From Anseongella ginsenosidimutans (GTDB lineage: Bacteria; Bacteroidota; Bacteroidia; Sphingobacteriales; Sphingobacteriaceae): DNA of 64,000 nucleotides. Shown here in pieces: positions 3,176-36,465 of the stretch. The translations under genes were made by a program, and so were the position numbers. Each line of letters starts with the position of its first letter. Position 1 is the stretch's first letter. Location: the NCBI RefSeq assembly GCF_008033235.1, contig NZ_CP042432.1, positions 1,674,001-1,738,000 of the forward strand, read 5' to 3'. Under the pieces are notes generated by a model. It did no database searches and had not been told where the DNA came from. It was given only the letters and a program-made list of their open reading frames with translations.

Positions 3176-3184
3176 GAAGTAGCC

Positions 3185-4240
3185 ATGCAACAAACCTCCT
3201 TTCGGGAAATCTATGACACGCTTTTCAGACGATGGAAGACTATCCTGGTTTCCGTCATCATTGCTTTAATGATAGGCCTCTTTGCCTACCTGATCACTCC
3301 AAAGGAATATTCAGGAGAAGCCTTGCTGGCGGTTGAGGGCACAGCGGACAATAAAAAAGGAGGGTTGGGAGCCCTTGCCAATCTTGCCGGTATAAATATT
3401 ACGGAACAAAATGGTCTGAACGCGCTGGTCTACGAAGACATTATTTATAGTACTCCTTACCTGATCGAAGTAGGACAGCATAAGGTAATGTATAAGGGGG
3501 ATTCAGTGTACCTGAAAGACTATCTGGCACAGGCGATGATCGTGAGCCTTCAGCAAAAGATATCCAGTCTTTTTGGCGGGAAACCTTCCGTAGTTTCTTC
3601 TAACGATACGGTAAGCTATAAAATCACAGAAGAAGATCCTGGTCAGTTCCGATACCTGAAAACCTTTCATGTCGACGGTCTTACGAGGAGGGCGGTTAAT
3701 ATATTGCGGAACAGGATAGATTTTTCGCTCAGCGAAAAATCGCCGGTTATAAATGTATCAGTAAAACTACAGGATCCGGACGTAAGCGCGGAAGCCGCAA
3801 GAATCGTAATAAAAGAACTTTCGGATTATATATCTGATTATGAATACGATAAGCAGCATCACAATATCGCATACCTGGAAGAACAAGTGCAGAAAGCAAA
3901 AGAAGAAGCCTATCAGGCACAGGCTGCATTGGCCAGGGCAAAAGACAGAAACAGGAATGTAATATCCGCGATACCTTCAGTAGAATTACAAAAACTGGCC
4001 GTAGAATCCCAAATTTCACAAAATGTGTATAATTCTCTTGCTTTGCGACTGGAGGAAGCCCGGATAGGAATTGAAGAAGAAAAGTCAACGTTTATGGTTA
4101 TTGAACCCCCCATCCCGATGAACGTAAATTCTCCGGTAGCACCTCGATTCGTTATTTATTGTATTTTTTCGGTTGTTTTGGGCGTTGTAGCGGCAATATC
4201 AATCATTTTTATCAGTACTTTTTTACAGAGAAATCTTTAA
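3185..4240 (+). CDS. Wzz/GumC-like chain-length determinant protein without kinase domain
   Basis: A 351-residue polysaccharide co-polymerase-like protein. A cytoplasmic N-terminus is followed by a membrane helix (about residues 19-36, ILVSVIIALMIGLFAYLI). A periplasmic domain with a coiled coil (about residues 210-310, rich in E, K and Q) ends in a second helix near residues 320-345, preceded by the P-rich VIEPPIPMNVNSPVAPR usual in this family. There is no Walker motif or tyrosine tail, unlike the full Wzc-like kinase encoded at 17337. It probably sets chain length together with the polymerase just downstream at 4253. Confidence 0.85.
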   Translation: MQQTSFREIYDTLFRRWKTILVSVIIALMIGLFAYLITPKEYSGEALLAVEGTADNKKGGLGALANLAGINITEQNGLNALVYEDIIYSTPYLIEVGQHKVMYKGDSVYLKDYLAQAMIVSLQQKISSLFGGKPSVVSSNDTVSYKITEEDPGQFRYLKTFHVDGLTRRAVNILRNRIDFSLSEKSPVINVSVKLQDPDVSAEAARIVIKELSDYISDYEYDKQHHNIAYLEEQVQKAKEEAYQAQAALARAKDRNRNVISAIPSVELQKLAVESQISQNVYNSLALRLEEARIGIEEEKSTFMVIEPPIPMNVNSPVAPRFVIYCIFSVVLGVVAAISIIFISTFLQRNL

Positions 4241-21425: not shown

Positions 21426-22733
21426 ATGAACAATAAAAATGTACCTAATGCTCGCATAGCCGTGATCGGACTAGGTTATGTTGGGCTTCCCCTTGCCGTT
21501 GAATTCGGCAAAAAATACGATGTGCTAGGTTTCGATATTAACGAAGAAAGGGTAAAGGAACTCAGCCAATGCAGAGACCGGACGCAGGAAGCAGATATAG
21601 ACACATTGAAAAGTGTTACGGAACTCAAGCGCAGCGGAAAAAAGAACCTTGGACTGCATTTTTCATCTGATACAAAGGACTTACGGAGTTACAATACTTA
21701 TATTGTTACCGTTCCTACACCAATTGACCAATTCAAGGCTCCCGATCTTCGTCCATTATTAAAAGCCTCCGAAATGATCGGTTCAGTACTTAAGAAGGGC
21801 GATCTGGTCATTTACGAATCTACCGTATATCCGGGTTGTACAGAAGAAGATTGTGTGCCTCAGCTGGAAAAAGTATCGGGCCTGAAATTTAATAAGGACT
21901 TTTTCTGTGGATATTCGCCGGAACGGATTAATCCCGGCGACAAGATCAATACCCTTACTAAGATCAAAAAGGTTACCAGCGGCTCGACACCTGAAATAGC
22001 CTGTCGGGTAGATGATCTGTACAAATCCATTATTACTGCAGGAACCCATAAAGCACCTAATATGAAGGTGGCAGAAGCTTCGAAAGCGATTGAAAATGCG
22101 CAAAGAGACGTAAACATCTCCTTTGTTAACGAATTAGCCTTGATTTTTGATCGGGTGGGAATTGATACTCATGATGTGATTGACGCGGCCGGAACCAAAT
22201 GGAACTTTCTAAAATATAGTCCCGGGCTTGTAGGAGGTCACTGTATAGGAGTAGATCCATACTATTTGGCTCATAAGGCTCAATCGTTAGGTTATCATCC
22301 GCAGGTGATACTATCAGGTCGTAGAGTTAACGATAATATGGGAATGTTCGTCGCAAGCAAGGTTGTAAAGTTAATGATCGCGAAGGATCATAGGATTAGG
22401 GGTTCACGGGCGCTTATTATGGGTATAACGTTTAAGGAAAATTGTCCTGATGTCAGGAATACGAGGGTAGTAGATATTTATCATGAATTGAAGCAATATG
22501 GCCTTGAGGTAGAAATTTATGATCCGTGGGCTAATGCTCACGAGGTTGAAGAGGAGTATGGAGTGAAGATTCTTAATGATATTGACAAAGCGGTAGTTTA
22601 TGACGCAATTGTAGTGGCAGTAGCTCACAACGAGTTTTTAAACTTTGACTATGAAAAGGTAAAAAGGAATAACGGAATTATATTCGATACCAAAGCTTGT
22701 TTGGACCGGGCGCTAGTTGATGGGAGATTATGA
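21426..22733 (+). CDS. Nucleotide-sugar dehydrogenase (TviB/WbpA type)
   Basis: A 435-residue UDP-sugar 6-dehydrogenase-family enzyme. [19 protein letters not shown] is the NAD-binding Rossmann loop, [15 protein letters not shown] and [10 protein letters not shown] are family blocks, and [20 protein letters not shown] contains the catalytic cysteine. [18 protein letters not shown] is the C-terminal domain signature. Closest in appearance to VipA/TviB/WbpA enzymes that oxidise UDP-GlcNAc or UDP-GalNAc to the uronic acid. It is the first gene after UpxY, and its stop overlaps the following dehydratase start. Confidence 0.9.
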
Positions 22734-23920
22734 TGGATATATTAAAGTTAATTGGTCGAAAGAGAGAGCTGTTCCAAGATGATATCGAAATCTATGACAA
22801 TGAGCTTAGATCGGTAGTGAGTAGTTCCAGCTTTCTGGTTATAGGGGGAGCCGGGTCAATTGGACAGGCGGTTACCAAAGAGATATTCAAGCGCAATCCC
22901 AAAAAATTGCACGTTGTCGATATCAGTGAGAATAATATGGTTGAACTTGTGCGCGATATTCGAAGTTCTCTTGGGTATATTCCTGGTGATTTTCAGACGT
23001 TTGCATTAGACATAGGCTCTGTTGAATATGATGCTTTTATAAATGCGGATGGCAAATACGATTATGTGTTAAACCTTTCCGCACTAAAGCATGTACGTAG
23101 TGAGAAGGATCCTTTTACATTGATGCGCATGCTTGATGTTAACGTGTTTAACACAGAAAAGACTATTCAACAAGCAATTAAAAAAGGAGCTAAAAAATAC
23201 TTCTGCGTTTCCACAGACAAAGCTGCGAATCCCGTTAACATGATGGGAGCATCAAAACGAATCATGGAAATGTTTCTAATGCGAAGAAGTCAGGAGATTG
23301 AGATTTCAACCGCCAGGTTTGCGAATGTTGCGTTTTCTGACGGCTCTTTATTATATGGTTTTAATCAGCGTATTCAAAAACGTCAACCTATTGTGGCGCC
23401 TAAGGATATTAAACGGTATTTCGTTACTCCTAAGGAGTCGGGGGAGCTGTGTTTGATGTCTTGTATTTTTGGCGAGAACCGTGATATATTTTTTCCAAAG
23501 CTGAGCGAGAATCTCCATTTAATAACCTTTGCGGATATAGCAATAAAATATCTTAACGAGCTAGGATATAAACCATTTATATGTGATACTGAAGAGGAAG
23601 CCAGACTCTTAGTTGATACACTATCGCATAAAAGAGATTGGCCATGTTTGTTTACAAATAGTGATACCACAGGGGAAAAAGATTTCGAAGAATTCTTTAC
23701 TTCCAAGGAGGTGCTTGATATGAGTCGTTTTAGAAATTTGGGGGTAATCAAAAATGACTTAATCGTCAAAGACGAAAAACTAATACACTTTGCTAAAAGA
23801 GTTGACATACTGCGGAAATCTGGCAATTGGACGAAAATGGAAATTCTTGATCTTTTTTTTGAAATGATTCCGGATTTTCACCATAAAGAAACCGGGAAGT
23901 ATCTCGATTCTAAAATGTGA
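22730..23920 (+). CDS. legB: NDP-HexNAc 4,6-dehydratase, LegB/CapD-like short form
   Basis: A 396-residue extended [22 protein letters not shown] is the NAD(P)-binding motif, and [20 protein letters not shown] the active-site segment with Lys in STDKA. The position often occupied by the YxxxK tyrosine is methionine (N-M-M-G-A-S-K-R), as in PglF/CapD-type dehydratases. Together with the next genes it fits the first committed step of nonulosonic acid synthesis: removing water from NDP-GlcNAc to a 4-keto-6-deoxy sugar. In the legionaminic acid route the nucleotide is GDP, consistent with the PtmE-like gene nearby. ATGs at 22730 and 22733 are both possible. Confidence 0.8.
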
Positions 23921-23923
23921 AGC

Positions 23924-25066
23924 ATGGCAAATTTTAAAGATGTTGTATTTTTTATACAAGACGCATTTCAAACGCGCGATTTTATTCCATTGCACGCGCC
24001 AAAATTTAGAGGTAATGAAAAAAGGTATCTATTGGATACAATTGACTCCACATTTGTTTCCTCGGTAGGGGCATACGTGGATCAATTTGAAGATTATATG
24101 CAGAAGCTTACTAGCTCGCGCAGGGCCGTTGCAGTAGTCAATGGAACAGCTGCCCTTCAAGTTGCATTACGCTTAGCTGATGTTAAAGAAGAGGATGAAG
24201 TAATTACTCAGGCATTAACCTTTGTTGCTACAGCCAATGCAATCGCATATAATGGGGCACATCCTGTTTTTATAGATGTGGATATTGATACCATGGGGTT
24301 GTCTCCAACTGCGGTTAGGGTATTTCTCGATGAATTTGGAGAACTAAGAGAAGATGGATGTTACAACAAATCTACAGGAAGAAGAATTGCTGCCTGCATA
24401 CCCATGCATACCTTTGGTTTTCCTGTACACCTTAATGAGCTGATTGATGTTTGTGAAAAATGGCAAATTCCCGTTGTAGAAGATGCAGCAGAATCATTGG
24501 GAAGTTACTATAAAGGAAAACATACCGGAAGTATCGGCAAGATCGGTACTTTCTCATTCAACGGAAATAAAACTGTAACCTGCGGCGGTGGAGGAGCTAT
24601 TACCACAGACGATCCTATAATCGGCGAGAAAGCGAAGTACCTTACTACTACAGCGAAAAAGCCCCATGCTTATGAATTTTTTCACGATGAGCTAGGTTAC
24701 AACTTTCGTATGCCTAATCTGAATGCGGCATTAGCTTGCGCACAATTGGAACAATTAGAGGAGATATTGGCTAGCAAGAGGCAGCTTGCGACTCAATATT
24801 GCAATTTCTTTAGCGAGCAAAAACTGCTATTTCGAACCGAATTGCCTGAAACTAAAGCGAATTATTGGCTTATGTGTGTTGAATGTGCTGATAAGACTGA
24901 AAGAGATTTGTTTTTAAAATACACAAATGAGGCAAAAGTAATGACACGGCCTATATGGCAACTTATGTTTCGATTACCTATGTACGAAAATTGCCAGAAA
25001 GATGCGCAAACCAATGCAAAGTATCTCGAAGAAAGAATTGTAAATATACCAAGTAGTGCCAGATAA
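23924..25066 (+). CDS. legC: PLP-dependent NDP-sugar aminotransferase, LegC-like
   Basis: A 380-residue DegT/DnrJ/EryC1-family enzyme. VAVVNGTAALQVALRLADVK and DEVITQALTFVATANAI are the cofactor-binding region. PVVEDAAESLGSYYKGKHTG gives the PLP-contacting Asp, TFSFNGNKTVTCGGGGAITT the catalytic lysine in the N-x-x-K context, and YNFRMPNLNAALACAQLEQL the R-M-P/N-A-A motif. It should convert the 4-keto sugar made by the upstream dehydratase into a 4-amino sugar. Its 3' end overlaps the next gene by 11 bases. Confidence 0.85.
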   Translation: MANFKDVVFFIQDAFQTRDFIPLHAPKFRGNEKRYLLDTIDSTFVSSVGAYVDQFEDYMQKLTSSRRAVAVVNGTAALQVALRLADVKEEDEVITQALTFVATANAIAYNGAHPVFIDVDIDTMGLSPTAVRVFLDEFGELREDGCYNKSTGRRIAACIPMHTFGFPVHLNELIDVCEKWQIPVVEDAAESLGSYYKGKHTGSIGKIGTFSFNGNKTVTCGGGGAITTDDPIIGEKAKYLTTTAKKPHAYEFFHDELGYNFRMPNLNAALACAQLEQLEEILASKRQLATQYCNFFSEQKLLFRTELPETKANYWLMCVECADKTERDLFLKYTNEAKVMTRPIWQLMFRLPMYENCQKDAQTNAKYLEERIVNIPSSAR

Positions 25067-25673
25067 TATCGCAATAGTAGGTTATTCAGGACATAGTTAC
25101 GTGGTTGCTGAAGCTGCTATTGAATCCCATATGGATTTAAAATACTATTCCGAAAAAGCGAAGGTCACCCATAACCCCTTTCAGTTAGAGTATATAGGGT
25201 TTGAAGAAGATCCGAATTTTCCATGGGATTTGGATTTTCAATTTGTCTTAGGGATTGGTGACAATCTGATTCGTAATAAGGTTGCGTCGCTGCTCGTATC
25301 GCGGCGAAAAAAGATTCTAAACGTTATTGCCCAACATTCCTCGTGTTCAGCCAGCATGCAATTGGGCGAAGGTAATTTTATTGCCCGCCAAGTTGCAGTC
25401 AATTCTTTCGTCGAAATCGGCAATTATTGTATCCTCAATACTGGTTGCGTCATCGAACACGAATGTAAAATTGGCGATACCGTTCATATTGCTCCAGGAG
25501 CCGTACTCGCAGGCAACGTGGAAGTGGGAGATTTTAGTTTCATTGGTGCAAATTCAGTGGTTAAGCAGGGTGTCAGAATAGGTGCCAATGTAATCATCGG
25601 CGCAGGCTCGGTAATCATTGACGATGTACTGGACGGCCAAAAAGTTGTTGGTAACCCAGGTAGAAAAATATGA
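25056..25673 (+). CDS. NeuD/PglD-family sugar N/O-acetyltransferase (LegH-like)
   Basis: A 205-residue protein. An N-terminal PglD-type Rossmann-like domain (NIAIVGYSGHSYVVAEAAI) is followed by hexapeptide repeats forming a left-handed beta-helix: GNFIARQVAVNSFVEIGNYC, EHECKIGDTVHIAPGAVLAG and GANVIIGAGSVIIDDVLDG. It ends in VVGNPGRKI. H-E-C-K is the catalytic histidine area. In this pathway it would acetylate the 4-amino group. The start is GTG, overlapping the aminotransferase by 11 bases, and the stop overlaps the synthase start (ATGA). Confidence 0.82.
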   Translation: MPDNIAIVGYSGHSYVVAEAAIESHMDLKYYSEKAKVTHNPFQLEYIGFEEDPNFPWDLDFQFVLGIGDNLIRNKVASLLVSRRKKILNVIAQHSSCSASMQLGEGNFIARQVAVNSFVEIGNYCILNTGCVIEHECKIGDTVHIAPGAVLAGNVEVGDFSFIGANSVVKQGVRIGANVIIGAGSVIIDDVLDGQKVVGNPGRKI

Positions 25674-26686
25674 CATCAGATAAAGTAATAATTATCGCAG
25701 AAGCGGGCGTAAATCATAACGGAAGCCTAAGTAATGCATTAAAGTTGGTGGATGCTGCAGTTGACGCCGGCGTGGATTATGTGAAATTTCAAACTTTTAA
25801 GGCAAGTAAACTGGTCTCTCATAGTGCAAAAAAGGCAGACTATCAAATTTCTAATACTCGTAAAAAGGAGGAAACTCAATTAGAAATGTTGAAGAAATTA
25901 GAACTGTCGAAACCCGAACACGAAAAATTAATCAAATACTGCCATGCCAAAAATATAAGGTTTTTTTCAACAGCATTTGATTTGGATTCTCTTAAATATT
26001 TGTCGACCGTTGGCATGGATATGGTTAAGATTCCCTCGGGCGAAATAAATAATCTTCCCTATTTACGAAGTGCTGCTTTTTTGTTTAAAAAGGCTCTATT
26101 GTCAACTGGAATGGCCACGATTGAAGAGATTCATGATGCAGTACAAGTATTCTTGGACAACGGGTTAAAACGGGAAAATATCACAATCTTACATTGTAAT
26201 ACGGAGTATCCTACGCCAATGGAAGACGTTAATTTGCGAGCGATGCTTCATATCGGAAGGGAGTTTAAAACTAAAATAGGATATTCCGATCATACCTTAG
26301 GAATAGAAGTTCCCATTGCTGCAGTGGCTTTAGGTGCAGCCGTTATCGAAAAGCATTTCACATTAGATAAGAATATGGAAGGGCCCGATCACAGGGCTTC
26401 GCTTGATCCATTGGAGTTGAAAGAAATGGTCTCGGGCATAAGGAATATTGAATCTGCCATTGCGGGCTCAGGCTTAAAAGCACCGTCCCCCTCGGAGTCA
26501 AAGAACTTAGTAATAGCCAGAAAAAGTATCGTGGCTGCCAGGAAAATTCAGAAGGGCGAGATTCTATCAGAGGATAATATTACCGTCAAACGTCCTGGGA
26601 ATGGCATATCTCCGATGCGATGGGATGAAGTAATAGGGAGAATTGCTTCTAAAGATTTTGATGCGGACGAACTAATCGTCTTTTAA
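25670..26686 (+). CDS. legI: NeuB-family nonulosonate synthase (LegI-like)
   Basis: A 338-residue enzyme that condenses PEP with a 6-carbon 2-acetamido sugar to a 9-carbon nonulosonic acid. The TIM barrel carries IIAEAGVNHNGSLSNALKLV, DYVKFQTFKASKLVS, MVKIPSGEINNLPYL, LLSTGMATIEEI, CNTEYPTPMEDVN, GYSDHTLGIEV and EKHFTLDKNMEGPDHRAS, which are the full set of PEP- and metal-binding motifs. A C-terminal SAF (antifreeze-like) domain starts near KSIVAARKIQKGEIL. All expected active-site residues are present, unlike the second homologue encoded at 28843. Confidence 0.92.
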   Translation: MTSDKVIIIAEAGVNHNGSLSNALKLVDAAVDAGVDYVKFQTFKASKLVSHSAKKADYQISNTRKKEETQLEMLKKLELSKPEHEKLIKYCHAKNIRFFSTAFDLDSLKYLSTVGMDMVKIPSGEINNLPYLRSAAFLFKKALLSTGMATIEEIHDAVQVFLDNGLKRENITILHCNTEYPTPMEDVNLRAMLHIGREFKTKIGYSDHTLGIEVPIAAVALGAAVIEKHFTLDKNMEGPDHRASLDPLELKEMVSGIRNIESAIAGSGLKAPSPSESKNLVIARKSIVAARKIQKGEILSEDNITVKRPGNGISPMRWDEVIGRIASKDFDADELIVF

Positions 26687-26697
26687 AACGAATCGGA

Positions 26698-27810
26698 ATG
26701 AAAGTTGGAGTGTTAACAAGTTCAAGAGCTGATTTTGGTATTTATTCGTCGTTATTGAAACGTATTCAAGAAGATAGTTTTTTTGACTTGGAGATTATTG
26801 CGTTCGGGACTCACCTTTCTAAATTTCATGGATATACTGTTGAACAGATAGTCGAGGCTAGATTTCCGAAAATTTACAAGATTGCTTCGCTGCTTACGAA
26901 CGATGATGAGCATTCGATATCAACTGCATATGGGTTAACTGCGTTAAAATTCTCGGATTTTTGGGCTGATCATATGTATGATTGGGTACTATGCCTGGGA
27001 GATCGGTTTGAAATGGCTGCCGCTGTGCAGGCAGGGATACCATATGATGTAAATTTCGCGCATTTGCATGGTGGAGAAACAACGCTTGGGGCTATTGATA
27101 ATATTTACCGACATCAGATTACGCTGGCCGCAAAGTTACATTTTCCCGCCACTCAACTATTTGCTGAAAGAATTATAGATATTACCGGAAATAAGAAAGG
27201 TATTAATGTTGTTGGTTCCCTATCTATTGATGAAATCGGAAACTTAAATATTCCTGACGAGGATGAATTCAGAAATAGATATAATATTCAAGGTGATTTC
27301 ATCTTGATTACTTTTCATCCAGAAACAGTATCGCCCGAGCGAAACCGTGCGAATGCAAAGGAAATGTATAAAGCTTTGAAAATGCTATCTAAGAATATGA
27401 AGCTTGTTATAACAATGCCTAATGCTGACACGTACGGAACAATATTTCGAGCGAATCTACTTCAATTGAAAAATGAAGAAGCTGATCAGGTTATTTTAAT
27501 TGAAACCTTTGGGAAATTAAATTATTTCGCTGCTATGCGATACTGCACTTTTCTGCTGGGTAACACATCAAGCGGAATTATTGAGGCCGCATCATTTGGG
27601 AAATATGTAATAAATGTAGGAGATAGGCAAAAAGGACGGGCGCAAAGCGGGAATGTCGTAAATACATCGTTTGACGCGAAAGAAATAAATCATGCGGCTT
27701 TGTCGCTCCTGCCTAAAGGGCGCTTTGCAGGAGTTAACATTTATTATAGACCGGGAACCGCAAGGGCGATTTTGGAGTCTTTGAAAAACTTTAACAATGA
27801 GGAGTTATAG
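26698..27810 (+). CDS. legG: Hydrolysing NDP-HexNAc 2-epimerase (NeuC/LegG-like)
   Basis: A 370-residue GT-B-fold epimerase/hydrolase. KVGVLTSSRADFGIYSSLLK is the N-terminal R-A-D/E motif, WVLCLGDRFEMAAAVQAGI the GDR-E motif, and NFAHLHGGETTLGAIDNIYR the H-G-G-E block. FILITFHPETVSPERN gives the H-P-E loop, and LLGNTSSGIIEAASFGKYVI the N-S-S-G-I-x-E motif. It releases NDP and inverts C2 to supply the ManNAc-like substrate of the synthase. The next gene starts within its last 14 bases. Confidence 0.9.
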   Translation: MKVGVLTSSRADFGIYSSLLKRIQEDSFFDLEIIAFGTHLSKFHGYTVEQIVEARFPKIYKIASLLTNDDEHSISTAYGLTALKFSDFWADHMYDWVLCLGDRFEMAAAVQAGIPYDVNFAHLHGGETTLGAIDNIYRHQITLAAKLHFPATQLFAERIIDITGNKKGINVVGSLSIDEIGNLNIPDEDEFRNRYNIQGDFILITFHPETVSPERNRANAKEMYKALKMLSKNMKLVITMPNADTYGTIFRANLLQLKNEEADQVILIETFGKLNYFAAMRYCTFLLGNTSSGIIEAASFGKYVINVGDRQKGRAQSGNVVNTSFDAKEINHAALSLLPKGRFAGVNIYYRPGTARAILESLKNFNNEEL

Positions 27811-28843
27811 AGATCATTTAATCCTACGGGGCACAACAATTCTACAGGCACTCATCCGCTTGGATGAACTTGCAAAAGACGCAATACTATTCGTAGTGGA
27901 TGGAAACGATACTTTAATAGGTTCTTTAACTGATGGTGATGTAAGAAGGGGTTTGATCAAAGGGCTATCCACGTCATGCCGCGTTGACGAAATTATTCAA
28001 GCTAATCCCAAATTTTTAAGAAAGGGGGAAACTGATATCGATCAGGTTATCGAATATAGGGAAAAAAACTTTAGAGTATTACCAATACTAAATAAGGAAA
28101 ATAAGGTTGTAAATGTGGTTAATTTTAGAGAAACACGATCTTATCTTCCTATTGACGCGGTAGTAATGGCGGGCGGGCGAGGTCAACGCTTAACGCCCTT
28201 AACAGATACTATTCCCAAACCTTTGTTAAGAGTAGGGGACAAACCTATTATGGAGTACAATGTTGATCGATTGGCTCTTTATGGAATAGACGATTTTTGG
28301 TTTTCCGTCAAGTACCTTGGAGACCAGATTAAAACATACTTCGCGGACGGTGCCAGGAAAAATATTCAAATACAGTATGTATGGGAAGACGAACCGCTGG
28401 GTACAATAGGAGCGGTATCTAAAATAAAAGACTTCACACACGATTATGTGCTAGTTACAAATTCGGATATACTTACCAATCTGGATTATGAGCATTTTTT
28501 TCTGGATTTTATAAAGAATGAAGCAGATTTTGCGGTTGTAACTATACCTTATTCCGTTAATGTGCCATATGCGGTTTTGGAGACCAATAATGGACATATT
28601 GTAAGCTTCAAAGAAAAGCCCACCTATACATATTATTCCAATGGCGGGATATATTTAATGAAAAGGGAAGTATTAAAGCATTTGCCTCAAAATACTTTTT
28701 TCAATGCGACTGATCTTATGGAAAAACTATTGGTAGAAAATCATAAGATTATTTCTTATCCTTTAGCCGGTTACTGGCTAGATATAGGAAAACCTGAAGA
28801 TTTTGAGAAAGCTCAGGTGGATATTAACAAAATAAAATTTTAA
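27797..28843 (+). CDS. ptmE: CBS-domain nucleotidyltransferase, PtmE-like (GlcN-1-P guanylyltransferase)
   Basis: A 348-residue fusion. Residues 10-115 are a CBS pair (AILFVVDGNDTLIGSLTDGD, FRVLPILNKENKVVNVVNF). Residues 117-345 form a nucleotidyltransferase with VVMAGGRGQRLTPLTDTIPK, LLRVGDKPIMEYNVDRL, VTNSDILTNLDYEHFF and AGYWLDIGKPEDFEKA. In Campylobacter the enzyme with this architecture makes GDP-glucosamine for legionaminic acid. Its presence supports a GDP-linked route here. It overlaps both neighbours (14 bases upstream, TAATG downstream), so it is firmly part of the operon. Confidence 0.85.
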   Translation: MRSYRDHLILRGTTILQALIRLDELAKDAILFVVDGNDTLIGSLTDGDVRRGLIKGLSTSCRVDEIIQANPKFLRKGETDIDQVIEYREKNFRVLPILNKENKVVNVVNFRETRSYLPIDAVVMAGGRGQRLTPLTDTIPKPLLRVGDKPIMEYNVDRLALYGIDDFWFSVKYLGDQIKTYFADGARKNIQIQYVWEDEPLGTIGAVSKIKDFTHDYVLVTNSDILTNLDYEHFFLDFIKNEADFAVVTIPYSVNVPYAVLETNNGHIVSFKEKPTYTYYSNGGIYLMKREVLKHLPQNTFFNATDLMEKLLVENHKIISYPLAGYWLDIGKPEDFEKAQVDINKIKF

Positions 28844-29904
28844 TGCTACCAAGTAATAAACCTTACCTTATCGGCGAAACCGCCTTCCATCATCAAGGTG
28901 ATGAGTTATTTTTACGGGAATTGATTGATCATGGCGCGAATGCAAAGGCGAATGCAATCAAATTCCATTTATTGTTAGACTTGGATGATTACATGATTAA
29001 AACCCATGACGCCTATCACATTTTGCAAGAATGGATGCTAACGGAAAGCCAATGGGAGAATGTCATTGCCTATAACTCTGAGAAGGGCTTGGATAGCATT
29101 TTATTGTGTAATGATTTAAAGTCTATTGAGTTTGCGGTTAAGCTAGAAAGCGACTCGCTTAAGGCGATTGAACTTCATGCCACAGGCCTAAATGATTATT
29201 TTCTATTAAAAAAAGCTTCGGAGTTTGATAAAACTGTTATTCTCGGTATCGGAGGGTCTTCAATTGACGAAATTAGCTATGCGATAGAGATGTTAAAATC
29301 TTTAGGTAAAGATGATATTTTTTTAATGTACGGGTTCCAAAATTACCCTACCAGATATGAAAATATCAACCTAAAGAAGATGATTAAATTACAAAATCTG
29401 TTCGCTCTTCCAGTCGGATATGCCGACCATACAGATCCAAGTGATGAGTTTAATGAGATCGTTTCTATACTAGGAATTCCCATGGGAATTAATGTCTGCG
29501 AAAAGCATTTTACACATGTATTCGGCGAGAAGCGAATTGACTCCCAATCAGCGGTGAGCATGGAGCAGTTTGCAAAAATACGTAAAATGATGGATGCAGC
29601 ATGGACTGCTGCTGGAGACGGAATACTAAAAATGTCTGAGGCCGAGTTAAGTTATGGAAACACAGGTCCGATGAAAAAGGCTATTGTTGCAAGCACACCT
29701 ATAAAAAAAGGTGAAATCATTACCCTTGCCAAAATAGCTTTTAAGCGGACCAATGAAAGTACTTATATTTTACAAAAGTTCTTGCCTCAACTGTTGGGCG
29801 CAATAGCATCTAAGGATATAGAACAAGATGAGTTTATCGATTTCGCGAACGTGATTTATAAGTTCCAGAAAACAGATTTTGGTCAATTTAGCGCAAATAA
29901 ATGA
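28843..29904 (+). CDS. Second, divergent NeuB-family protein
   Basis: A 353-residue NeuB homologue with TIM barrel and C-terminal SAF domain (AIVASTPIKKGEIITLAKIA). Retained: the N-terminal Glu (YLIGETAFHHQGD), the Lys of AIKFHLLLD, and the metal-type histidines in VGYADHTDPSDEF and CEKHFTHVFGEKR. Changed against the LegI-like paralogue: MVKIPSGE becomes IELHATGL, LSTGM becomes ILGIGGSS, CNTEYPTP becomes FQNYPTRY. Several PEP- or sugar-contacting residues are therefore replaced. It may use another substrate, form a hetero-oligomer, or be non-catalytic. Coupled to both neighbours (TAATG, ATGA). Confidence 0.8.
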   Translation: MLPSNKPYLIGETAFHHQGDELFLRELIDHGANAKANAIKFHLLLDLDDYMIKTHDAYHILQEWMLTESQWENVIAYNSEKGLDSILLCNDLKSIEFAVKLESDSLKAIELHATGLNDYFLLKKASEFDKTVILGIGGSSIDEISYAIEMLKSLGKDDIFLMYGFQNYPTRYENINLKKMIKLQNLFALPVGYADHTDPSDEFNEIVSILGIPMGINVCEKHFTHVFGEKRIDSQSAVSMEQFAKIRKMMDAAWTAAGDGILKMSEAELSYGNTGPMKKAIVASTPIKKGEIITLAKIAFKRTNESTYILQKFLPQLLGAIASKDIEQDEFIDFANVIYKFQKTDFGQFSANK

Positions 29905-30734
29905 AAATAGGATACTTTATTACCGCTCGATTGAAGAGCAGCCGATTGAAGCAAAAAGTAATACTGCCGTTAAATAATTTAAACGTCATTGAACATGTAA
30001 TTCGTCGATGTCAGCTAGTAAGTGGTATCGAAGGTGTCGTCATGTGTACTTCGACAAATTCTCAGGATGCTTTGCTATATGATTACGCATTAAAACATCA
30101 AATAAAGTTCTTTCCGGGATCAGAACATGATGTGTTGGCCAGACTACTGGATGCGGCTAAATATTACGGGTTTGACGCGTTTTTAAGCATTACAGCCGAT
30201 AACCCTTTGCACTCGCCGCATATTGCAAATATCATTGTCGATTGGGTTAGAAGAGAACCATCAGATTTTGTTTTTACTTCAGGGGTTCCCATCGGGCTTG
30301 CGCCATATTTTATCACGACGAAAGCTCTTGAAGTTGCTGTTGAGATGAAAAAGGAAAGTGACACTGAAATTTGGGGGCCATTTGTTAACAGGCCGGATTT
30401 TTTTAATATTGGATACCTTGATATTAAGACGGCTTTGTTCGCGCCTAACATTCGGTTAACTTGTGATTACTTAGAAGATTATTTTTTATTAGAAGATATA
30501 TATAGGCATTTCATCCCTGGGTATTGCCCAAGCTTGTTTGAGATTGCAAGGTTGATCCAGGAAGAGAAAGTTGTGCTACAGAATTTACAAGTTGAACAAA
30601 GAACCGTAGACGATCTCGTTTTGGAAAAAATAAATGACAACTTTGAAGCAAACAAAAGGCGGGGAGAGGAAATAGCGAAAAATATTGGCTTGATTTTGCG
30701 TCCCGGAAAAAGAAAATTGGAGATAACATTATGA
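29901..30734 (+). CDS. SpsF-type cytidylyltransferase (candidate CMP-nonulosonate synthetase)
   Basis: A 277-residue CTP_transf_3-like protein. MKIGYFITARLKSSRLKQKV is the SpsF-style nucleotide-binding loop with R and K, MCTSTNSQDALLYDYA follows, and LSITADNPLHSPHIANIIVD supplies the metal-binding Asp. Nonulosonic acid operons need a CMP-transferase, and this is the only candidate here. It lacks the usual NeuA/LegF P-A-R-x-G-S-K opening, so the assignment rests on fold and context. It overlaps both neighbours by ATGA. Confidence 0.7.
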   Translation: MKIGYFITARLKSSRLKQKVILPLNNLNVIEHVIRRCQLVSGIEGVVMCTSTNSQDALLYDYALKHQIKFFPGSEHDVLARLLDAAKYYGFDAFLSITADNPLHSPHIANIIVDWVRREPSDFVFTSGVPIGLAPYFITTKALEVAVEMKKESDTEIWGPFVNRPDFFNIGYLDIKTALFAPNIRLTCDYLEDYFLLEDIYRHFIPGYCPSLFEIARLIQEEKVVLQNLQVEQRTVDDLVLEKINDNFEANKRRGEEIAKNIGLILRPGKRKLEITL

Positions 30735-31186
30735 TTTTTGACGAGATAAAGAACGCAAGCTTTTACTACAATCTTCACCCATACATAAGAGAAGGGTTGG
30801 AATTTTTGATTAATCATGACGATCTAATGAATCTTGCCGTAGGTAAACAAGATATTGACGGCGATAATGTTTTTGCTTTGGTGCAAGAATATCAGACCAA
30901 AGAATTTAACGAGGAAATGTGGGAAGCACATAGAAAATACTATGATCTTCAATTTGTTGTTGATGGTGTTGAGAACATTGCAATTTCTCATATCAACGAT
31001 ATTTCTCCACGAACAGAATATAACGTCGGTGATGACTATCGTTTATTCAAGGGTATAGGTGCCAAAATAAAAGTCACAAGAGGTCAGTTTTTACTACTTT
31101 CACCCAAAGATGTTCATCAACCTGGGTTAATAGCTACAGAACCTGGACACGTAAAAAAGATAGTTCTCAAAATTCGCATCGAATAA
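30731..31186 (+). CDS. YhcH/YjgK/YiaL-family cupin protein
   Basis: A 151-residue double-stranded beta-helix protein. WEAHRKYYDLQFVVDGVENI, with the E-x-H-x-x-x-x-D-x-Q pattern, and the later LLLSPKDVHQPGLIATEPG give the metal-binding His/Glu set of the family. In E. coli yhcH lies in the sialic acid operon, and the family is suspected to process the ring form of acidic sugars. Here it ends the nonulosonate block and is coupled to the cytidylyltransferase gene by ATGA. The exact reaction is uncertain. Confidence 0.82.
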   Translation: MIFDEIKNASFYYNLHPYIREGLEFLINHDDLMNLAVGKQDIDGDNVFALVQEYQTKEFNEEMWEAHRKYYDLQFVVDGVENIAISHINDISPRTEYNVGDDYRLFKGIGAKIKVTRGQFLLLSPKDVHQPGLIATEPGHVKKIVLKIRIE

Positions 31187-31198
31187 GCAGCGGTATAG

Positions 31199-32629
31199 AT
31201 GACGAATAATCTTCTTAGGCACTCTGCTATTTATTCATTCTTTACCCTTCTGCAAAGAGGTTTAAGTTTTTTTTTGCTTCCTCTTTATACGATTTACCTT
31301 ACGAAAGATCAGTACGGAATTATAAGCCTATTCATGGCGGGCATTCCTTTTTTTGTGCTAATTGCAGGTCTATCCATTCGAGGAAGTACGGCATTTTATT
31401 ATCAGGAATATAAAAGTAAAACTAAGTATTTGCGGCTGTTATTAGGTTCTAATGTGGCAGTACTAATGATATTTAGCGGGCTGATATTCGCTATAATGTT
31501 AATATTTAGTGGGGCGTTCATAACTGTGTTTTTTCGAGGTGTAAACCCCTATCCTACGTTCTTTCTTGCTTGCGTTAGTATTTTGTTGCAACCACTATAT
31601 TATTTCTATCAGTCATATTTAAAAGCAAAAGAACGTGCGTTCAAATCGTCAATGTATGATCTTTTATACTTTGTTATTCTGATTGGGCTAAATCTATATT
31701 TTATTTTAATAAGAGATAAGCAAGCCAATGGAGTATTAATGGCAATGGCAATTAGCAATCTAGTAATGTTTATGATTGCCTTAGCAGACATGTGGGGAAA
31801 TATTTCTCTGAATTTAAATCTTTCTCTTATTAAGAAAACCTTAAAATATTCCTTGCCAATACTGCCCCACAACTTATTTAGTTGGGCAATGAATTTGTCG
31901 GATAGAATTATTCTCAATCGCTTAACCTCGCTTGAAATTGTAGCAATTTTTGATATAGGGTCGCAATTCGGAAAAGTATTAAGCATAGTAACTTTAGGAG
32001 TAAATGCCGCTTATACCCCATGGTTTTTCCAACAGGTGAAAGCTGATTATATTGACAAGAACAAACTGGCGGTCGTTGCGGAAAGCCTTACATTGGTTTA
32101 TATATTATTTGCAGCAATTATGAGCTGGCTAGCTCCTGAACTACTTTTAGCAATATCGAAATCTCAGTATGGCGAGTCATGGAAGATAGTTCCTTACGTA
32201 TCGTTTGCTTTTGCTGTTAATGGCTTCTACTATTGCTTTAGTTCGGTTTTTTTTTTAGATCATACTAGGTATCTTTTTAGACTTTCAATCTTCGGCGCTG
32301 CATTCAATATAGCGTTGAATTTTTTATTAATTCCTTTTTATGGATTTTTAGGAGCTGCGATTGCCTGCTTAATTTCAAGGGTGATATTTTGCATTGTGTC
32401 CTTTTACTATAGTCAAAGGATCTTTTATATACCATATCGCGTTTTGAACATTGTTAGCTTTTTTTTCGCGGGTTTTTTGTTGACAACTTTGATGTTTTTA
32501 ACTGAGCCCTTATATCAAGACGTTTCCTTAGTTAAGAGGATATTGGCAAAATGTATTATGCTCGCAGGCATCGGTACGCCAATTTTATTATGGCATTGGA
32601 GGAAAGTGCGCGCCGCTATAAAGAAGTAG
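31199..32629 (+). CDS. Wzx-type lipid-linked oligosaccharide flippase
   Basis: A 476-residue membrane protein with about fourteen hydrophobic helices. The N-terminus LLRHSAIYSFFTLLQRGLSF and the first-helix-pair pattern FLLPLYTIYLTKDQYGIISL are characteristic of polysaccharide transporters of the MOP superfamily. NLSDRIILNRLTSLEIVAIF is the usual mid-protein R-x-x-L segment. It would move the undecaprenyl-linked repeat to the periplasm for the polymerase at 33987. This is the only flippase in the window. Confidence 0.9.
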   Translation: MTNNLLRHSAIYSFFTLLQRGLSFFLLPLYTIYLTKDQYGIISLFMAGIPFFVLIAGLSIRGSTAFYYQEYKSKTKYLRLLLGSNVAVLMIFSGLIFAIMLIFSGAFITVFFRGVNPYPTFFLACVSILLQPLYYFYQSYLKAKERAFKSSMYDLLYFVILIGLNLYFILIRDKQANGVLMAMAISNLVMFMIALADMWGNISLNLNLSLIKKTLKYSLPILPHNLFSWAMNLSDRIILNRLTSLEIVAIFDIGSQFGKVLSIVTLGVNAAYTPWFFQQVKADYIDKNKLAVVAESLTLVYILFAAIMSWLAPELLLAISKSQYGESWKIVPYVSFAFAVNGFYYCFSSVFFLDHTRYLFRLSIFGAAFNIALNFLLIPFYGFLGAAIACLISRVIFCIVSFYYSQRIFYIPYRVLNIVSFFFAGFLLTTLMFLTEPLYQDVSLVKRILAKCIMLAGIGTPILLWHWRKVRAAIKK

Positions 32630-33987
32630 TTTCCAAACGACCCCAACTAGTTTTCATGGTCAAGAAGAAGAATCTCAGAGATATTGAACAGAATCATCGA
32701 GTAAAAGATATAAAAGTTCGAAAGATACCGATTTGGATATTTCTTAGACAGAAAATTCATTTGGAGTTAATTCGAAGTCAATACGGCTATGATTCCCATT
32801 TGAGGACAAAGAACTTATTACATTTATTAGGTAGCTTTTTTTGGGGCTTACCAAATTGGTTTAAGACTAGAAATATTGATTATATATTTTTTAACAATGC
32901 GGATAAACGCGTGAGTCTTAACGATAAATATTTCGATATTTTTTTTGATGCTATTGCGGATAATGTCGGTCAAAGGAAATGTTTTTTTATTGAATGGGCT
33001 ATTACAAAACATTTTCCGGTTCGCAGTACCTACTCCTCAAATGTAGTTTCTGATCTTCCCGTAAAGTTGATATCAACAGTATTGGCCAGGTTAATGGGAT
33101 TCTTAAAAATAGAAGGAGATGAGGTTTTGCGAAAGATTAACCAGGAATACGGCCTCGCAATAAATTATGAAAAACTTGGTAAGCGGTTTTTAGCCGAATA
33201 CTATGTCTACAGCCTTATTTTTAAGTTTATTAAGCCCAAAGCTATATTCGTTTTGTGCTATTACTCACGAAGCAGTATTGTAAAAGCCGCTAAAGATCTT
33301 GGGATAAGAGTTATAGAAGCTCAACATGGTTATGTGGGCAATAGTCATCAATTTTATAGGAGCGAACATGACTTCTACGACTTTTTTCCCGATGATTTTA
33401 TTTCATTCGGCGAATATGAAAAGGGATGTAGAACGGCGGATTTCATTTTTAAGGAAAACCAAATACATCCAGTCGGCAGCTTTTGGCTAGAACATGTAAG
33501 AAATACATCAGAGAGCGAGGAGCTAAAAGAGTTCGTACGTAAGTATAGCAAGGTCTTTTGTGTGACACTTCAGGGGGTTAAAGAACGAAAGGTTCTGCAG
33601 TGGGTAAAGCGGCAAGCAATACGAAATCCAACTTTTTTATTTGTGGTGCGACCTAAATATCCTAACAGGCTTTACGGGAATTATCTGTCGGAGAACGTGG
33701 TGGTGCTTCCGAAGTATAACATTTATGAAATTCTAAAGTATTCGGATTACAATATAACAATATATTCAACAACAGCGATAGAAGCTAGTTTTTTTAATGT
33801 TAAAACGCTTTTCTATAATATCAATAATTTAAGCACACAGTATTTCGAACCTGAGAAGATTTATTCAAGTGTTATAGAGGAAGATGAAGATCTTACTGCT
33901 TTACATTTAGAAACACAGGATCATATTAGGGCTAATTACTTTCGGGAAGGGTACCTAACGAACATCAAGCATTTCAATATTGTATAA
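32590..33987 (+). CDS. Putative GT-B capsule glycosyltransferase
   Basis: The open frame starts at 32551. ATGs at 32590 or 32656 are likelier starts: the first overlaps the flippase gene by 40 bases, the second follows its stop. Residues in the C-terminal half resemble capsule-type GT-B enzymes (CDP-glycerol transferase/polysialyltransferase-like fold): VIEAQHGYVGNSHQFY, IHPVGSFWLEHV, FLFVVRPKYPNRLYG and YNITIYSTTAIEASFFNVKT. The S-T-x-x-x-E-A pattern is the usual donor-site motif. Position after the nonulosonate genes makes it the candidate transferase for the CMP-activated sugar, but this is inference. Confidence 0.6.
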   Translation: MALEESARRYKEVVSKRPQLVFMVKKKNLRDIEQNHRVKDIKVRKIPIWIFLRQKIHLELIRSQYGYDSHLRTKNLLHLLGSFFWGLPNWFKTRNIDYIFFNNADKRVSLNDKYFDIFFDAIADNVGQRKCFFIEWAITKHFPVRSTYSSNVVSDLPVKLISTVLARLMGFLKIEGDEVLRKINQEYGLAINYEKLGKRFLAEYYVYSLIFKFIKPKAIFVLCYYSRSSIVKAAKDLGIRVIEAQHGYVGNSHQFYRSEHDFYDFFPDDFISFGEYEKGCRTADFIFKENQIHPVGSFWLEHVRNTSESEELKEFVRKYSKVFCVTLQGVKERKVLQWVKRQAIRNPTFLFVVRPKYPNRLYGNYLSENVVVLPKYNIYEILKYSDYNITIYSTTAIEASFFNVKTLFYNINNLSTQYFEPEKIYSSVIEEDEDLTALHLETQDHIRANYFREGYLTNIKHFNIV

Positions 33988-35219
33988 TGCATAAAGTAAT
34001 ATTTGTATTGCTAATAATTCAACCCTTTGTCAATAAGCTTACACTCAAGGCGGGTGTTCCGTTTGATATATACAATGAGCTTATCAGTCTAGTGGTATTT
34101 TTTCTATTTGTCTATCGGTTTTTTAAAAATCATAAGGTTAATCGGAACTATCTTTATATACTATATATAGTTCTTTATATGGTTTTCGTCACCATTCTTC
34201 GTCGAAATGGCGGGCTCAGTTATGTCCAGATTTTGCTCTACTTACAGTTTTTCTTTTATTTTCTGTATTTCTATAGTTTTTCCCCCTATGTGAAAGAACG
34301 AATGATTAGAGACATAAAAGTGCTTTTGGATTATGTAGTTGTTGTAATTATTGCGTTTACGTTCTACGAGGTTTATTTTTCCAGCGATGTTCGAAATTTT
34401 TTTGGGGTTTCTAACTTCAATCGAGGCATTGGAAATTTTTATTTGGTGTCTATTTTCGGATCCGGGCCTAGTCTTGCAAGTTTTATGTCCCTTTACGTGA
34501 TATATTGGTTTTATTATCACAAAGTATTGAGTCATAAAAACAATGTAAGACAAAGTGTATTATTGTATTTGTCCGTGATAATATGTCTATTATCGTTTTC
34601 CCGAAAGGAAGTGCTTTTGTTAAGTTCGTTTTTTGTGTTTTTCCCCTATTCCATCAAGTCTAAGTTGCAACGGACATTGAAAATTATCGTTGCGGCGGTT
34701 GTTGTGTGCGCTGGGCTTTTTATATACTACCAAGAGTTTTTTCAAGAAGCAAATGAAGTAGCAATGACCGATGATTATGTCAGATGGCAAATATTGCAGT
34801 ATTCTGTCGACGTTTTTGATAAATATGCACCATTCGGCTCCGGCCCAGGAACATTTGGTTCTCAAATGTCACTTCAGCAGACGCATGTATATAATGAGTT
34901 TAATATAGGTCGACGAATCCTTGGCGATGGTTTAGCGAATCGAGGCCCAATATACGATGTGTTTCTATTCACATTTATAGCTGAAATTGGAATCGGGTTT
35001 TTACTGTATGGTGCATTTTTTCTGAAGCTTGCGAGATCTGTCATTTTAAAAGAAGGCAGGGCGAAACGTTTCATTGTACGTTTTCTAGTTTTTTATCTGT
35101 TTATTATGAGCATGTTTACCCCTGTTTTAATGAATTCTTTTGGATTTCTTTTGGCTTCCACTTTAGGGGTGTTTGTGACAATCATCGGTACGAAAAGGTT
35201 CAGTAGTGAGTATGCATAG
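33987..35219 (+). CDS. Second Wzy-like polymerase / O-antigen ligase-family protein
   Basis: A 410-residue protein with about ten membrane helices and a large periplasmic loop (about residues 255-325, containing PFGSGPGTFGSQMS and RRILGDGLANRGPIYD). FSRKEVLLLSSFFVFFPY matches the S-R-x-x-x-L helix start of O-antigen ligase-type proteins, and the G-x-G-P-G-T-F loop is typical of Wzy/WaaL relatives. It is distinct from the polymerase-like gene at 4253 and much more AT-rich. The start overlaps the previous stop (TAATG). It likely polymerises the nonulosonate-containing repeat. Confidence 0.8.
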   Translation: MHKVIFVLLIIQPFVNKLTLKAGVPFDIYNELISLVVFFLFVYRFFKNHKVNRNYLYILYIVLYMVFVTILRRNGGLSYVQILLYLQFFFYFLYFYSFSPYVKERMIRDIKVLLDYVVVVIIAFTFYEVYFSSDVRNFFGVSNFNRGIGNFYLVSIFGSGPSLASFMSLYVIYWFYYHKVLSHKNNVRQSVLLYLSVIICLLSFSRKEVLLLSSFFVFFPYSIKSKLQRTLKIIVAAVVVCAGLFIYYQEFFQEANEVAMTDDYVRWQILQYSVDVFDKYAPFGSGPGTFGSQMSLQQTHVYNEFNIGRRILGDGLANRGPIYDVFLFTFIAEIGIGFLLYGAFFLKLARSVILKEGRAKRFIVRFLVFYLFIMSMFTPVLMNSFGFLLASTLGVFVTIIGTKRFSSEYA

Positions 35220-35724
35220 GTTGAAATTATTTTTATACTATTTTATCATATCTAAACTTCCTCATTCAAGGCTTTTAATGGTGTCAAACCGCATTCGTGT
35301 GTGGTATATATCAAAAATCTTAAAGATTGCACAGAATGATAAAAATTCAAAGTTTGAAAATGGGATATATATATCTAATGCTCGAACACTTAAAATTGGT
35401 GCCTATGTTAGAATTAATGAAAATGTATTCCTTCAGGGCAAGATCACAATAGGTAGTTATGTTATGATTGCTCCAAATGTGGCGATTTACAGTTCAACCC
35501 ATATTTACAATGATAAAACAATTCCTATGGTACTTAGCGGCAGTACGGTACCCAAAGAAGTGACAATTCACGATGATGTATGGGTTGGTAGAGGGGCAAT
35601 TATTATGCCCGGTATAACTGTTGGAAGAGGAGCGATAATAGGTGCGAACGCTGTTGTAACCAAAGACGTTGAAGAATATACAATTGTCGGAGGAGTGCCG
35701 GCAAAGATTTTGAAAAAACGATAA
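35212..35724 (+). CDS. Hexapeptide-repeat O-acetyltransferase (MAT/WbbJ-like)
   Basis: A protein of about 170 residues with left-handed beta-helix repeats: GAYVRINENVFLQGKITIGS, YVMIAPNVAIYSSTHIY (catalytic His in S-T-H), VTIHDDVWVGRGAIIMPGIT and VGRGAIIGANAVVTKDV, ending in VGGVPAKILKKR. ATG 35212 lies two codons after an in-frame GTG at 35206; both overlap the polymerase gene end. It probably O-acetylates a sugar of the repeat unit. Confidence 0.87.
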   Translation: MHRLKLFLYYFIISKLPHSRLLMVSNRIRVWYISKILKIAQNDKNSKFENGIYISNARTLKIGAYVRINENVFLQGKITIGSYVMIAPNVAIYSSTHIYNDKTIPMVLSGSTVPKEVTIHDDVWVGRGAIIMPGITVGRGAIIGANAVVTKDVEEYTIVGGVPAKILKKR

Positions 35725-35769
35725 TTTTATTGATATGGTACTATTATAATCAACTGAATTGAGTAATAT

Positions 35770-36465
35770 ATGGACGTTGCTGTTATAAATGGGAAAAGAG
35801 CCTATGGTTTTGTTTCCACTGGAGAACTATTAGATTTTATTGAAGGGAAAAAAGGACTGTTGGTAGCTCTGAACCCCGAAAAGCTTAATCGAAATGAGCC
35901 GTTACTTGATCAGATTATAAATAATCACATAGGATACCCTGACGGCATTGGGGCTGTATTTGCGTTACGACTGAGAGGTGTTAAGGCAATTAGAATAACT
36001 GGTGCAGATTTCTGGCTCGATATTATAAAAAATAACTATAAATCGAAAAGTTTTTATTTAATAGGTGCAAGGCAAGATGTCCTCGAAGCAACAGTAGCAA
36101 GACTAAAGAAGGAGTATCCGAAAATAGAGATTAAGGGCTGGAGGAATGGTTACTTCAAGCATGAGGAAATTAACACAATTGCTGAAGAGATAAAGGCTAC
36201 CGAGCCAGATTTTGTATTTGTTGCTATGGGAAGTCCGCGGCAAGAGTATTTAATGAATGAGTTATTTGGGCAGTTTGATAAGGCGCTATATATGGGGCTC
36301 GGAGGAAGTTATGACGTCTATTCGGGAAGTAAAAAGCGAGCACCTAAGGTTTTGCAAGTACTGGGTTTGGAGTGGTTTTATAGACTGGCATCCGAGCCTT
36401 CACGTTGGAGGAGACAGACAAGCTTGTTTGTTTTTTTGTACCGATTATTGTTGAAGAGGATATAG
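35770..36465 (+). CDS. WecG/TagA/CpsF-family glycosyltransferase (GT26)
   Basis: A 231-residue GT26 enzyme. VALNPEKLNRNEPLLDQIIN, GYPDGIGAVFALRLRGVKAI (with the P-D-G-x-G motif) and ITGADFWLDII match the family's N-terminal half. FYLIGARQDVLEATVARLKK follows. FVAMGSPRQEYLM is the conserved G-x-P-x-Q-E motif, and GLGGSYDVYSGSKKRAPKVL with GLEWFYRLASEPSRWRR closes the protein. Such enzymes transfer ManNAc-type or uronic sugars to undecaprenyl-PP-GlcNAc, an early step that fits the WecA-like gene in this operon. Confidence 0.92.
   Translation: MDVAVINGKRAYGFVSTGELLDFIEGKKGLLVALNPEKLNRNEPLLDQIINNHIGYPDGIGAVFALRLRGVKAIRITGADFWLDIIKNNYKSKSFYLIGARQDVLEATVARLKKEYPKIEIKGWRNGYFKHEEINTIAEEIKATEPDFVFVAMGSPRQEYLMNELFGQFDKALYMGLGGSYDVYSGSKKRAPKVLQVLGLEWFYRLASEPSRWRRQTSLFVFLYRLLLKRI

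Follow-up and report, generated by a model that had tools for sequence, protein, structure and literature searches.

NulO pathways have been assigned from the sequence of NeuB (PMC7371886). Among the closest described systems, the legionaminic acid (Leg) pathway of B. subtilis has a NeuB-family protein, SpsE (structure 1vli), together with the SpsF-type cytidylyltransferase that gave the type its name (PMC7439481). In that organism, spsF was reported to be needed for Leg on the spore surface, and the spsF mutant makes Leg without placing it on the spore (PMC7439481), a phenotype that fits SpsF as a CMP-Leg synthetase. In a Vibrio Pse cluster, an SpsF-like domain fused to another enzyme has been proposed to act for an absent NeuA (PMC7371886). 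A distant second NeuB with extra domains, Sas/NeuB2, has been reported inside the Leg cluster of Leptospira and is described as a synthase-phosphatase fusion with an animal-like Neu5Ac route (PMC3438082, PMC4758666); our comparison with this protein is by description only. The Leptospira synthetase structure 6ncs carries the canonical motif HCVSSYPM.

The window analysed here is the whole stretch of 64,000 nucleotides from Anseongella ginsenosidimutans (contig NZ_CP042432.1, positions 1,674,001 to 1,738,000). It contains a predicted Leg operon, whose genes lie on the plus strand in the following order.

22730..23920, + strand, LegB-like 4,6-dehydratase (Pfam Polysacc_synt_2; the name LegB is from context)
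23924..25066, + strand, LegC-family aminotransferase (TIGR04181, 533 bits, over the cut-off)
25056..25673, + strand, NeuD/LegH-like acetyltransferase (TIGR03570, 184 bits, over the cut-off)
25670..26686, + strand, LegI-like canonical NulO synthase (TIGR03569, 496 bits, cut-off 399.65; canonical motifs)
26698..27810, + strand, LegG/NeuC-like hydrolysing 2-epimerase (TIGR03568, 345 bits, over the cut-off)
27797..28843, + strand, PtmE-like protein with CBS and nucleotidyltransferase domains (Pfam NTP_transferase and CBS)
28843..29904, + strand, NeuB2, a divergent NeuB-fold protein (barrel at about residues 1-260 and SAF at 281-337, from the ORF, Pfam, the model, and structure matches)
29901..30734, + strand, SpsF-type cytidylyltransferase (start overlapping the NeuB2 stop; Pfam CTP_transf_3, 59.5 bits, cut-off 22.6)
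30731..31186, + strand, YhcH/NanQ-like DUF386 protein (TIGR00022, 113.5 bits, above the cut-off of 45.5; acetylneur_anom NF040884, 102 bits, below the cut-off of 160)

The CBS and nucleotidyltransferase protein is presumably the one named PtmE, and the DUF386 protein may be a NulO anomerase for the same sugar. The genes that follow are putatively those of a flippase, a glycosyltransferase, and a polymerase. The aligned motifs of B. subtilis SpsE (KIAS and HCVAKYPA) are of the canonical type, and SpsE is the synthase of its pathway, whereas in the window this role falls to LegI and NeuB2 is an extra protein. A genome search found these two NeuB-family genes only.

Similar gene content was observed at the NeuB2 loci of other genomes. 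In the 27 of 46 loci that were well covered (at least 8 kb of DNA on each side), LegI, LegG, and SpsF were each found in 27/27, PtmE and LegC in 26/27, the DUF386 gene in 18/27, and the LegB-like gene in 16/27. When all loci were counted, LegI was found in 38/46 and SpsF in 43/46. LegI, LegG, PtmE, or SpsF was missing in 11/46, most of which were short or ended near the gene, and in one locus (L048) none of the four was found within 6.9 kb before and 2.5 kb after NeuB2.

The NeuB2 gene is an intact frame of 353 aa from the ATG at 28843 to the stop at 29904. Its product exceeded the Pfam gathering scores for NeuB (PF03102; 6.8e-32, 111.3 bits vs 22.1) and SAF (PF08666; 6.8e-7, 30.2 bits vs 21), but missed the synthase equivalog cut-offs of TIGR03569 (144.7 vs 399.65 bits) and TIGR03586 (107.2 vs 340.25 bits). 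The AlphaFold model (pLDDT 93.4, pTM 0.84) had the barrel and SAF fold; in Foldseek, it was matched by 8h2c_A (TMq 0.84) and 1xuu (TMq 0.79), and VIA aligned 325 residues with 2wqp (Z 32.4, rmsd 2.8), all three matches covering the barrel and SAF and thus nearly the full length of the chain. NeuB2 is a member of the NeuB and SAF structural superfamily, and the proposal of the initial annotation, the same fold with a rewired active site, agrees with these NeuB/PseI matches. Identity to the solved NeuB, LegI, and PseI structures was, however, 20-23%.

The active site was compared by aligning NeuB2 and LegI to the NeuB structure 1xuu, which provides the Neisseria numbering. The motifs concerned are as follows, with counts among 50 NeuB2-type sequences.

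28873..28902, + strand, GETAFHHQGD: E12 = Neisseria NeuB E25, kept; canonical N-H changed to H-H (E12 50/50, H16 43/50)
28954..28968, + strand, AIKFH: K40 = K53, kept (50/50); H42 in place of Q55 (48/50)
29170..29196, + strand, ELHATGLND replacing KIPSGEINN: E110 = K129, H112 = position 131 (E110 50/50, class-defining; H112 50/50; N117 49/50)
29242..29256, + strand, LGIGG replacing LSTGM: G135 = S154 (G135 49/50, G138 50/50)
29332..29352, + strand, GFQNYPT replacing CNTEYPT: G164 = C182, Q166 = N184 of Neisseria (F165 50/50; G164 and Q166 class-defining)
29419..29433, + strand, YADHT: H196 = metal ligand H215 (50/50); A194 in place of S213 (49/50)
29500..29514, + strand, EKHFT: H222 = metal ligand H236 and E220 = E234 (both 50/50)

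Further equivalences were A113 with S132, D233 with D247, and R302 with R314. The residues previously listed as kept (E12, K40, H196, and H222) were all present in the LegI alignment, and the motifs previously listed as lost were indeed replaced, HCNTEYPT by YGFQNYPT with only Y-P-T left of it. Beyond these lists, Q55 is changed to H and T110 to L, and D247 and R314, taken here as sugar-side residues, are kept. NeuB2 thus shares with canonical NeuB, LegI, and PseI (PF03102 and SAF; 1xuu, 2wqp, and 8h2c) not only the fold but also E25, K53, H215, E234, H236, D247, and R314, whereas positions 55, 110, 129, 131, 154, 182, 184, and 213 are occupied by other conserved residues. Among the solved chains whose motif was inspected (1xuu, 8h2c, 1vli, 3g8r, and 6ncs), none was seen to belong to the divergent clade; all carry the canonical C-x-x-x-Y-P.

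Positions 110, 129, 131, 132, 182, and 184 have been named as surrounding PEP in Neisseria NeuB (PMC7371886). At each of the six, NeuB2 of the window has another residue than LegI. The NeuB2 class carries L, E, H, S or A, G, and Q at these positions, where canonical sequences carry mostly T, K, P/A, S, C, and T/S, and five of the six (110, 129, 131, 182, and 184) are replaced throughout the NeuB2 clade. From the key site residues given for NeuB (E25, Q55, N74, T110, F112, K129, N184, Y186, S213, H215, E234, F288, and R314; PMC6795526), NeuB2 retains E25, Y186, H215, E234, and R314 and is changed at Q55, T110, F112, K129, N184, and S213, the equivalents of N74 and F288 being without confident placement. 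On the metal and sugar side, E25, H215, E234, H236, and D247 occurred in 50/50 NeuB2 rows and R314 in 47/50. The alignment further suggests that E110, H112, and H42 would cluster in the active site. A site that has lost its PEP side but still has K53, the metal histidines, and the SAF arginine would fit a different donor, and also an enzyme or binding protein for a finished ulosonic acid. A plain second Leg synthase is not supported, given the replacements at five of the six PEP-side positions and a score below the equivalog cut-off. A NeuB remodelled in this way, above the Pfam NeuB cut-off yet without the PEP-side motifs, could mislead sugar predictions.

Homologue searches covered 200 relatives and, at the levels of class and phylum, 395 genomes each; five, eight, and four genomes, respectively, had a match at the thresholds used (own genome counted). 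In addition, named genomes were scanned once with the patterns I[GA]ETA[FWM]HH and I[FIV]LM[HFY]GFQ, which gave 65 loci. Counts of the scan motifs are partly selected because the patterns contain them; ten homologues from the plain homology search also carry the G-x-Q form. G164, Q166, and residue 110 served to define the classes. The resulting alignment held 128 NeuB-family proteins (50 NeuB2-type, 19 divergent with K129, and 59 canonical), and the loci without a divergent row in it were L045 (a duplicate of L044), L071 and L078 (fragments below 280 aa), L086, L087, and L088.

The 50 NeuB2-type sequences span many phyla, and their substituted residues are near-invariant. In addition to the counts given above, L88 was found in 50 and N90 in 43, and among the kept residues D233 in 50 and R302 in 47. 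The changes from LegI to NeuB2 are uniform (K to E and P to H in the first motif, Q to H, T to L, S to G, T to Q, and S to A), the commonest canonical residues opposite E110, H112, L88, H42, A194, and G135 being K, P, T, Q, S, and S, respectively. In an unconstrained tree of 124 rows, made by a quick method with SH-aLRT support and no bootstrap, NeuB2-type sequences formed one clade of 48 (SH-aLRT 99) and canonical sequences one clade of 57 (SH-aLRT 100). These row counts equal the class sizes once two repeat loci are dropped; L032 and L065 had been left out as repeats of other loci.

A score so far under the synthase model cut-off could point to a decaying duplicate of a synthase. This explanation was ruled out and retains a negligible probability, because the replaced positions carry the same new residues across the NeuB2 sequences; the frame is also intact and the fold of high confidence. 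Random substitution among homologues, which the initial annotation had regarded as the sign of simple decay, was not seen in the 50 sequences.

SpsF is the only CTP_transf_3 protein found in the Anseongella genome besides KdsB. Its R-x-x-S-x-R-L-x-x-K start and acidic T-x-D-x-x-x-D motif are intact, R10, S13, R15, K19, D189, and D193 being present in at least 59 of 60 rows, and it is the sole candidate CMP-legionaminic acid synthetase of this genome. The two genes are close in nearly every locus: of the 47 NeuB2 genes in 46 loci, 41 have SpsF at a distance of no more than 100 bp, three (L026, L027, and L041) have one gene between, two (L030 and L043) are at a contig end, and one (L048) is without SpsF. 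Even where SpsF comes first (L069 and L072), the adjacency is retained.

Furthermore, seven ORFs of 581-598 aa encode a divergent NeuB followed by SpsF (SpsF profile, E 2.4e-60 to 1.3e-71). Their hosts are four Paenibacillus records, Nitrososphaera, Nitrosopumilus, and one Pelagibacteraceae genome. Among the 13 K129-keeping relatives in the named-genome scan, seven are fused to SpsF, five are adjacent to it, and one is without it; K129 and Q55 are kept in 19/19 of the K129-keeping class (fused and archaeal relatives). In the model of the Nitrosopumilus fusion (pLDDT 90.8, pTM 0.66), whose domain arrangement is unreliable because of this pTM, the N-domain matches 8h2c and 1xuu (NeuB/PseI-like) and the C-domain resembles the Leptospira cytidylyltransferase 6oew. 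The SpsF-like domain of the Vibrio Pse cluster, in contrast, is fused to an aldo-keto reductase and not to a NeuB-fold protein (PMC7371886). The partnership of NeuB2 with SpsF, by adjacency and by fusion, is new; no paper describing the NeuB2 paralogue or a NeuB-SpsF fusion was found in the literature, which was represented mostly by titles and abstracts, with subscription journals thinly covered.

These data bear on the partner of NeuB2, for which the initial annotation, as an alternative to a different donor, had suggested LegI, with NeuB2 in a regulatory role. NeuB enzymes are domain-swapped dimers (PMC6795526), and a SAF-swapped heterodimer in which NeuB2 regulates LegI would be in keeping with the presence of both genes in all 27 well-covered loci and with the SAF-domain R314 kept in most NeuB2 sequences. 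Such a heterodimer is nevertheless very improbable: NeuB2 adjoins SpsF rather than LegI, and the fusions are all to SpsF, none to LegI. The genomic partner, by both adjacency and fusion, is SpsF.

Two loci had unusual arrangements of these genes. L072 (1041-11480) contains two SpsF-NeuB2 pairs, with SpsF first, and two canonical NeuB genes, as though the whole unit had been duplicated. In L004, a short NeuB-like ORF of 231 aa, apparently without SAF (2551-3246), lies beside a divergent NeuB and SpsF.

The cytidylyltransferases of 21 genomes were then compared, KdsB being called by TIGR00466 at the same places as the CTP_transf_3 matches. In 14 of them (G000, G625, G683, G836-G840, G842, G843, G846, G847, G850, and G851), no CTP_transf_3 match (E <= 1e-5) was found other than KdsB, where present, and the SpsF that adjoins the divergent NeuB or forms one protein with it. 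The other seven (G413, G594, G841, G844, G845, G848, and G849) had one or more further cytidylyltransferase-like matches, only weak ones in G841 and G844. Exactly two NeuB-family genes (E <= 1e-8) were found in 15/21 genomes. One activating enzyme for two NeuB proteins speaks for a single sugar route that both proteins would serve.

It is possible, but rather doubtful, that NeuB2 is a synthase for a second ulosonic acid, using another donor (or PEP held differently) and another aldehyde, with SpsF activating this product, either by itself or in addition to Leg. NeuB2 retains the metal site, K53, D247, and R314, which would suit such an enzyme, and in B. subtilis SpsF is paired with a synthase. 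However, the 14 genomes have one SpsF and no further candidate that could serve a second product as CMP-NulO synthetase, LegI accompanies NeuB2 in every well-covered locus, and the PEP side is replaced across the clade. The probability is kept at this level because the wider family keeps K129 and because the Nitrosopumilus locus has a second SpsF beside a canonical NeuB, apart from the fusion, an arrangement that would fit two separate products. As the fused and archaeal relatives keep both K129 and Q55, the wider divergent family may still consist of PEP-dependent synthases.

Other cytidylyltransferase-like genes were noted in passing. In G845, the genome of L055, an additional NeuB-family gene (contig C1, 1138442-1139893) is the immediate neighbour of another cytidylyltransferase-like gene. 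ORFs in L070 (7190-8569, 459 aa) and L073 (118-1524, 468 aa) have a family-2 glycosyltransferase-like start and a canonical NeuA match (66 and 63 bits, respectively), and may be glycosyltransferase-NeuA fusions.

NeuB2 is probably a functioning but unrecognised pathway step and not a decayed gene, because a conserved new pocket is joined with adjacency or fusion to a presumed sugar-activating enzyme in bacteria and archaea. Quite possibly, the repurposed NeuB-fold protein and SpsF form a CMP-activation module of the Leg pathway, and this is the reading that we prefer. LegI would make Leg from PEP, and NeuB2, presumably not a conventional PEP synthase any more, would not repeat this step. Instead, it would bind Leg via the retained metal and sugar side and act on it with the new E110/H112/H42 cluster, either immediately ahead of CMP transfer by SpsF or in the course of it. 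The likeliest chemistry, conjecturally, would be an isomerisation at carbons adjoining the keto acid, for which E110, H112, and H42, standing in the places of K129, position 131, and Q55, might be catalytic. Since the C3-C4 bond is formed by NeuB chemistry, the most economical idea is C4 epimerisation, in which a metal-assisted retro-aldol/aldol reaction would reverse the bond made by canonical NeuB. 4-Epilegionaminic acid exists in nature (PMC5595891). In the same report, C7/C8 epimers were proposed to be made after CMP-Leg by extra enzymes; by analogy, epimerisation after CMP-Leg is another possible order for the NeuB2 route. That NeuB2 is truly a metal-dependent isomerase (or retro-aldolase) of a nine-carbon sugar acid, coupled or fused to the CMP-transferring enzyme so that an unrecognised Leg isomer such as the 4-epimer is made and activated, is unlikely when taken as a specific claim. 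If NeuB2 does change the sugar, a class of surface glycans in marine Bacteroidota and other phyla, which would be taken for ordinary Leg, may in fact contain another sugar.

The lost PEP side, the kept sugar side, and the adjacency or fusion to SpsF would also suit a pseudoenzyme, that is, a subunit without catalysis of its own that would bind Leg and pass it on to SpsF, or would modulate SpsF. We consider this distinctly unlikely, since the conservation of E110, H112, and H42 is about as strict as that of the kept metal ligands, which exceeds the needs of a scaffold. Several points weigh against the CMP-activation module: K129 and Q55 in the fused and archaeal relatives, the second SpsF of the Nitrosopumilus locus, the further cytidylyltransferase-like matches in seven genomes, and the 11 loci with one or more pathway genes missing. 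Another comes from B. subtilis, where SpsF partners the canonical SpsE and NeuB2 is not mentioned in the available portion of the report (PMC7439481); SpsF would therefore have no general need for NeuB2. The strict link to SpsF, with fusions in Bacteria and Archaea, puts the NeuB2 step within reach of testing.

As for the origin of the locus, the nearest NeuB2 rows, with 64-68% identity, were from Aquimarina, Kriegella, Oceanihabitans, Allomuricauda, and an uncultured member of the Flavobacteriaceae. The nearest loci share with the window the gene order from LegB to NeuB2 and, after it, the putative flippase, glycosyltransferase, polymerase, and acetyltransferase genes; in L026 and L027, an additional gene separates SpsF from NeuB2. 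At E 1e-30, only four other genomes among the 200 relatives had a match to NeuB2 (29-34% identity), and no plasmid relatives were found at the same threshold. The G+C content was 0.36 at 28001-36000 vs 0.46-0.53 at 40001-64000. Because of this fall in G+C and the gene order shared with marine Flavobacteriaceae loci, the glycan locus was probably acquired horizontally.

Finally, the tree contained a separate divergent NeuB clade of four rows (SH-aLRT 100), in which K53 is changed to Q and the motif reads HGVQNFPT. Its members are L006 (1513-2562), L018 (9534-10577), L019 (9643-10674), and the L010 homologue. In L006, L018, and L019, this gene lies near a DapA/NanA-like aldolase gene and a canonical NeuB, and a NeuA-like gene is also present in L019.
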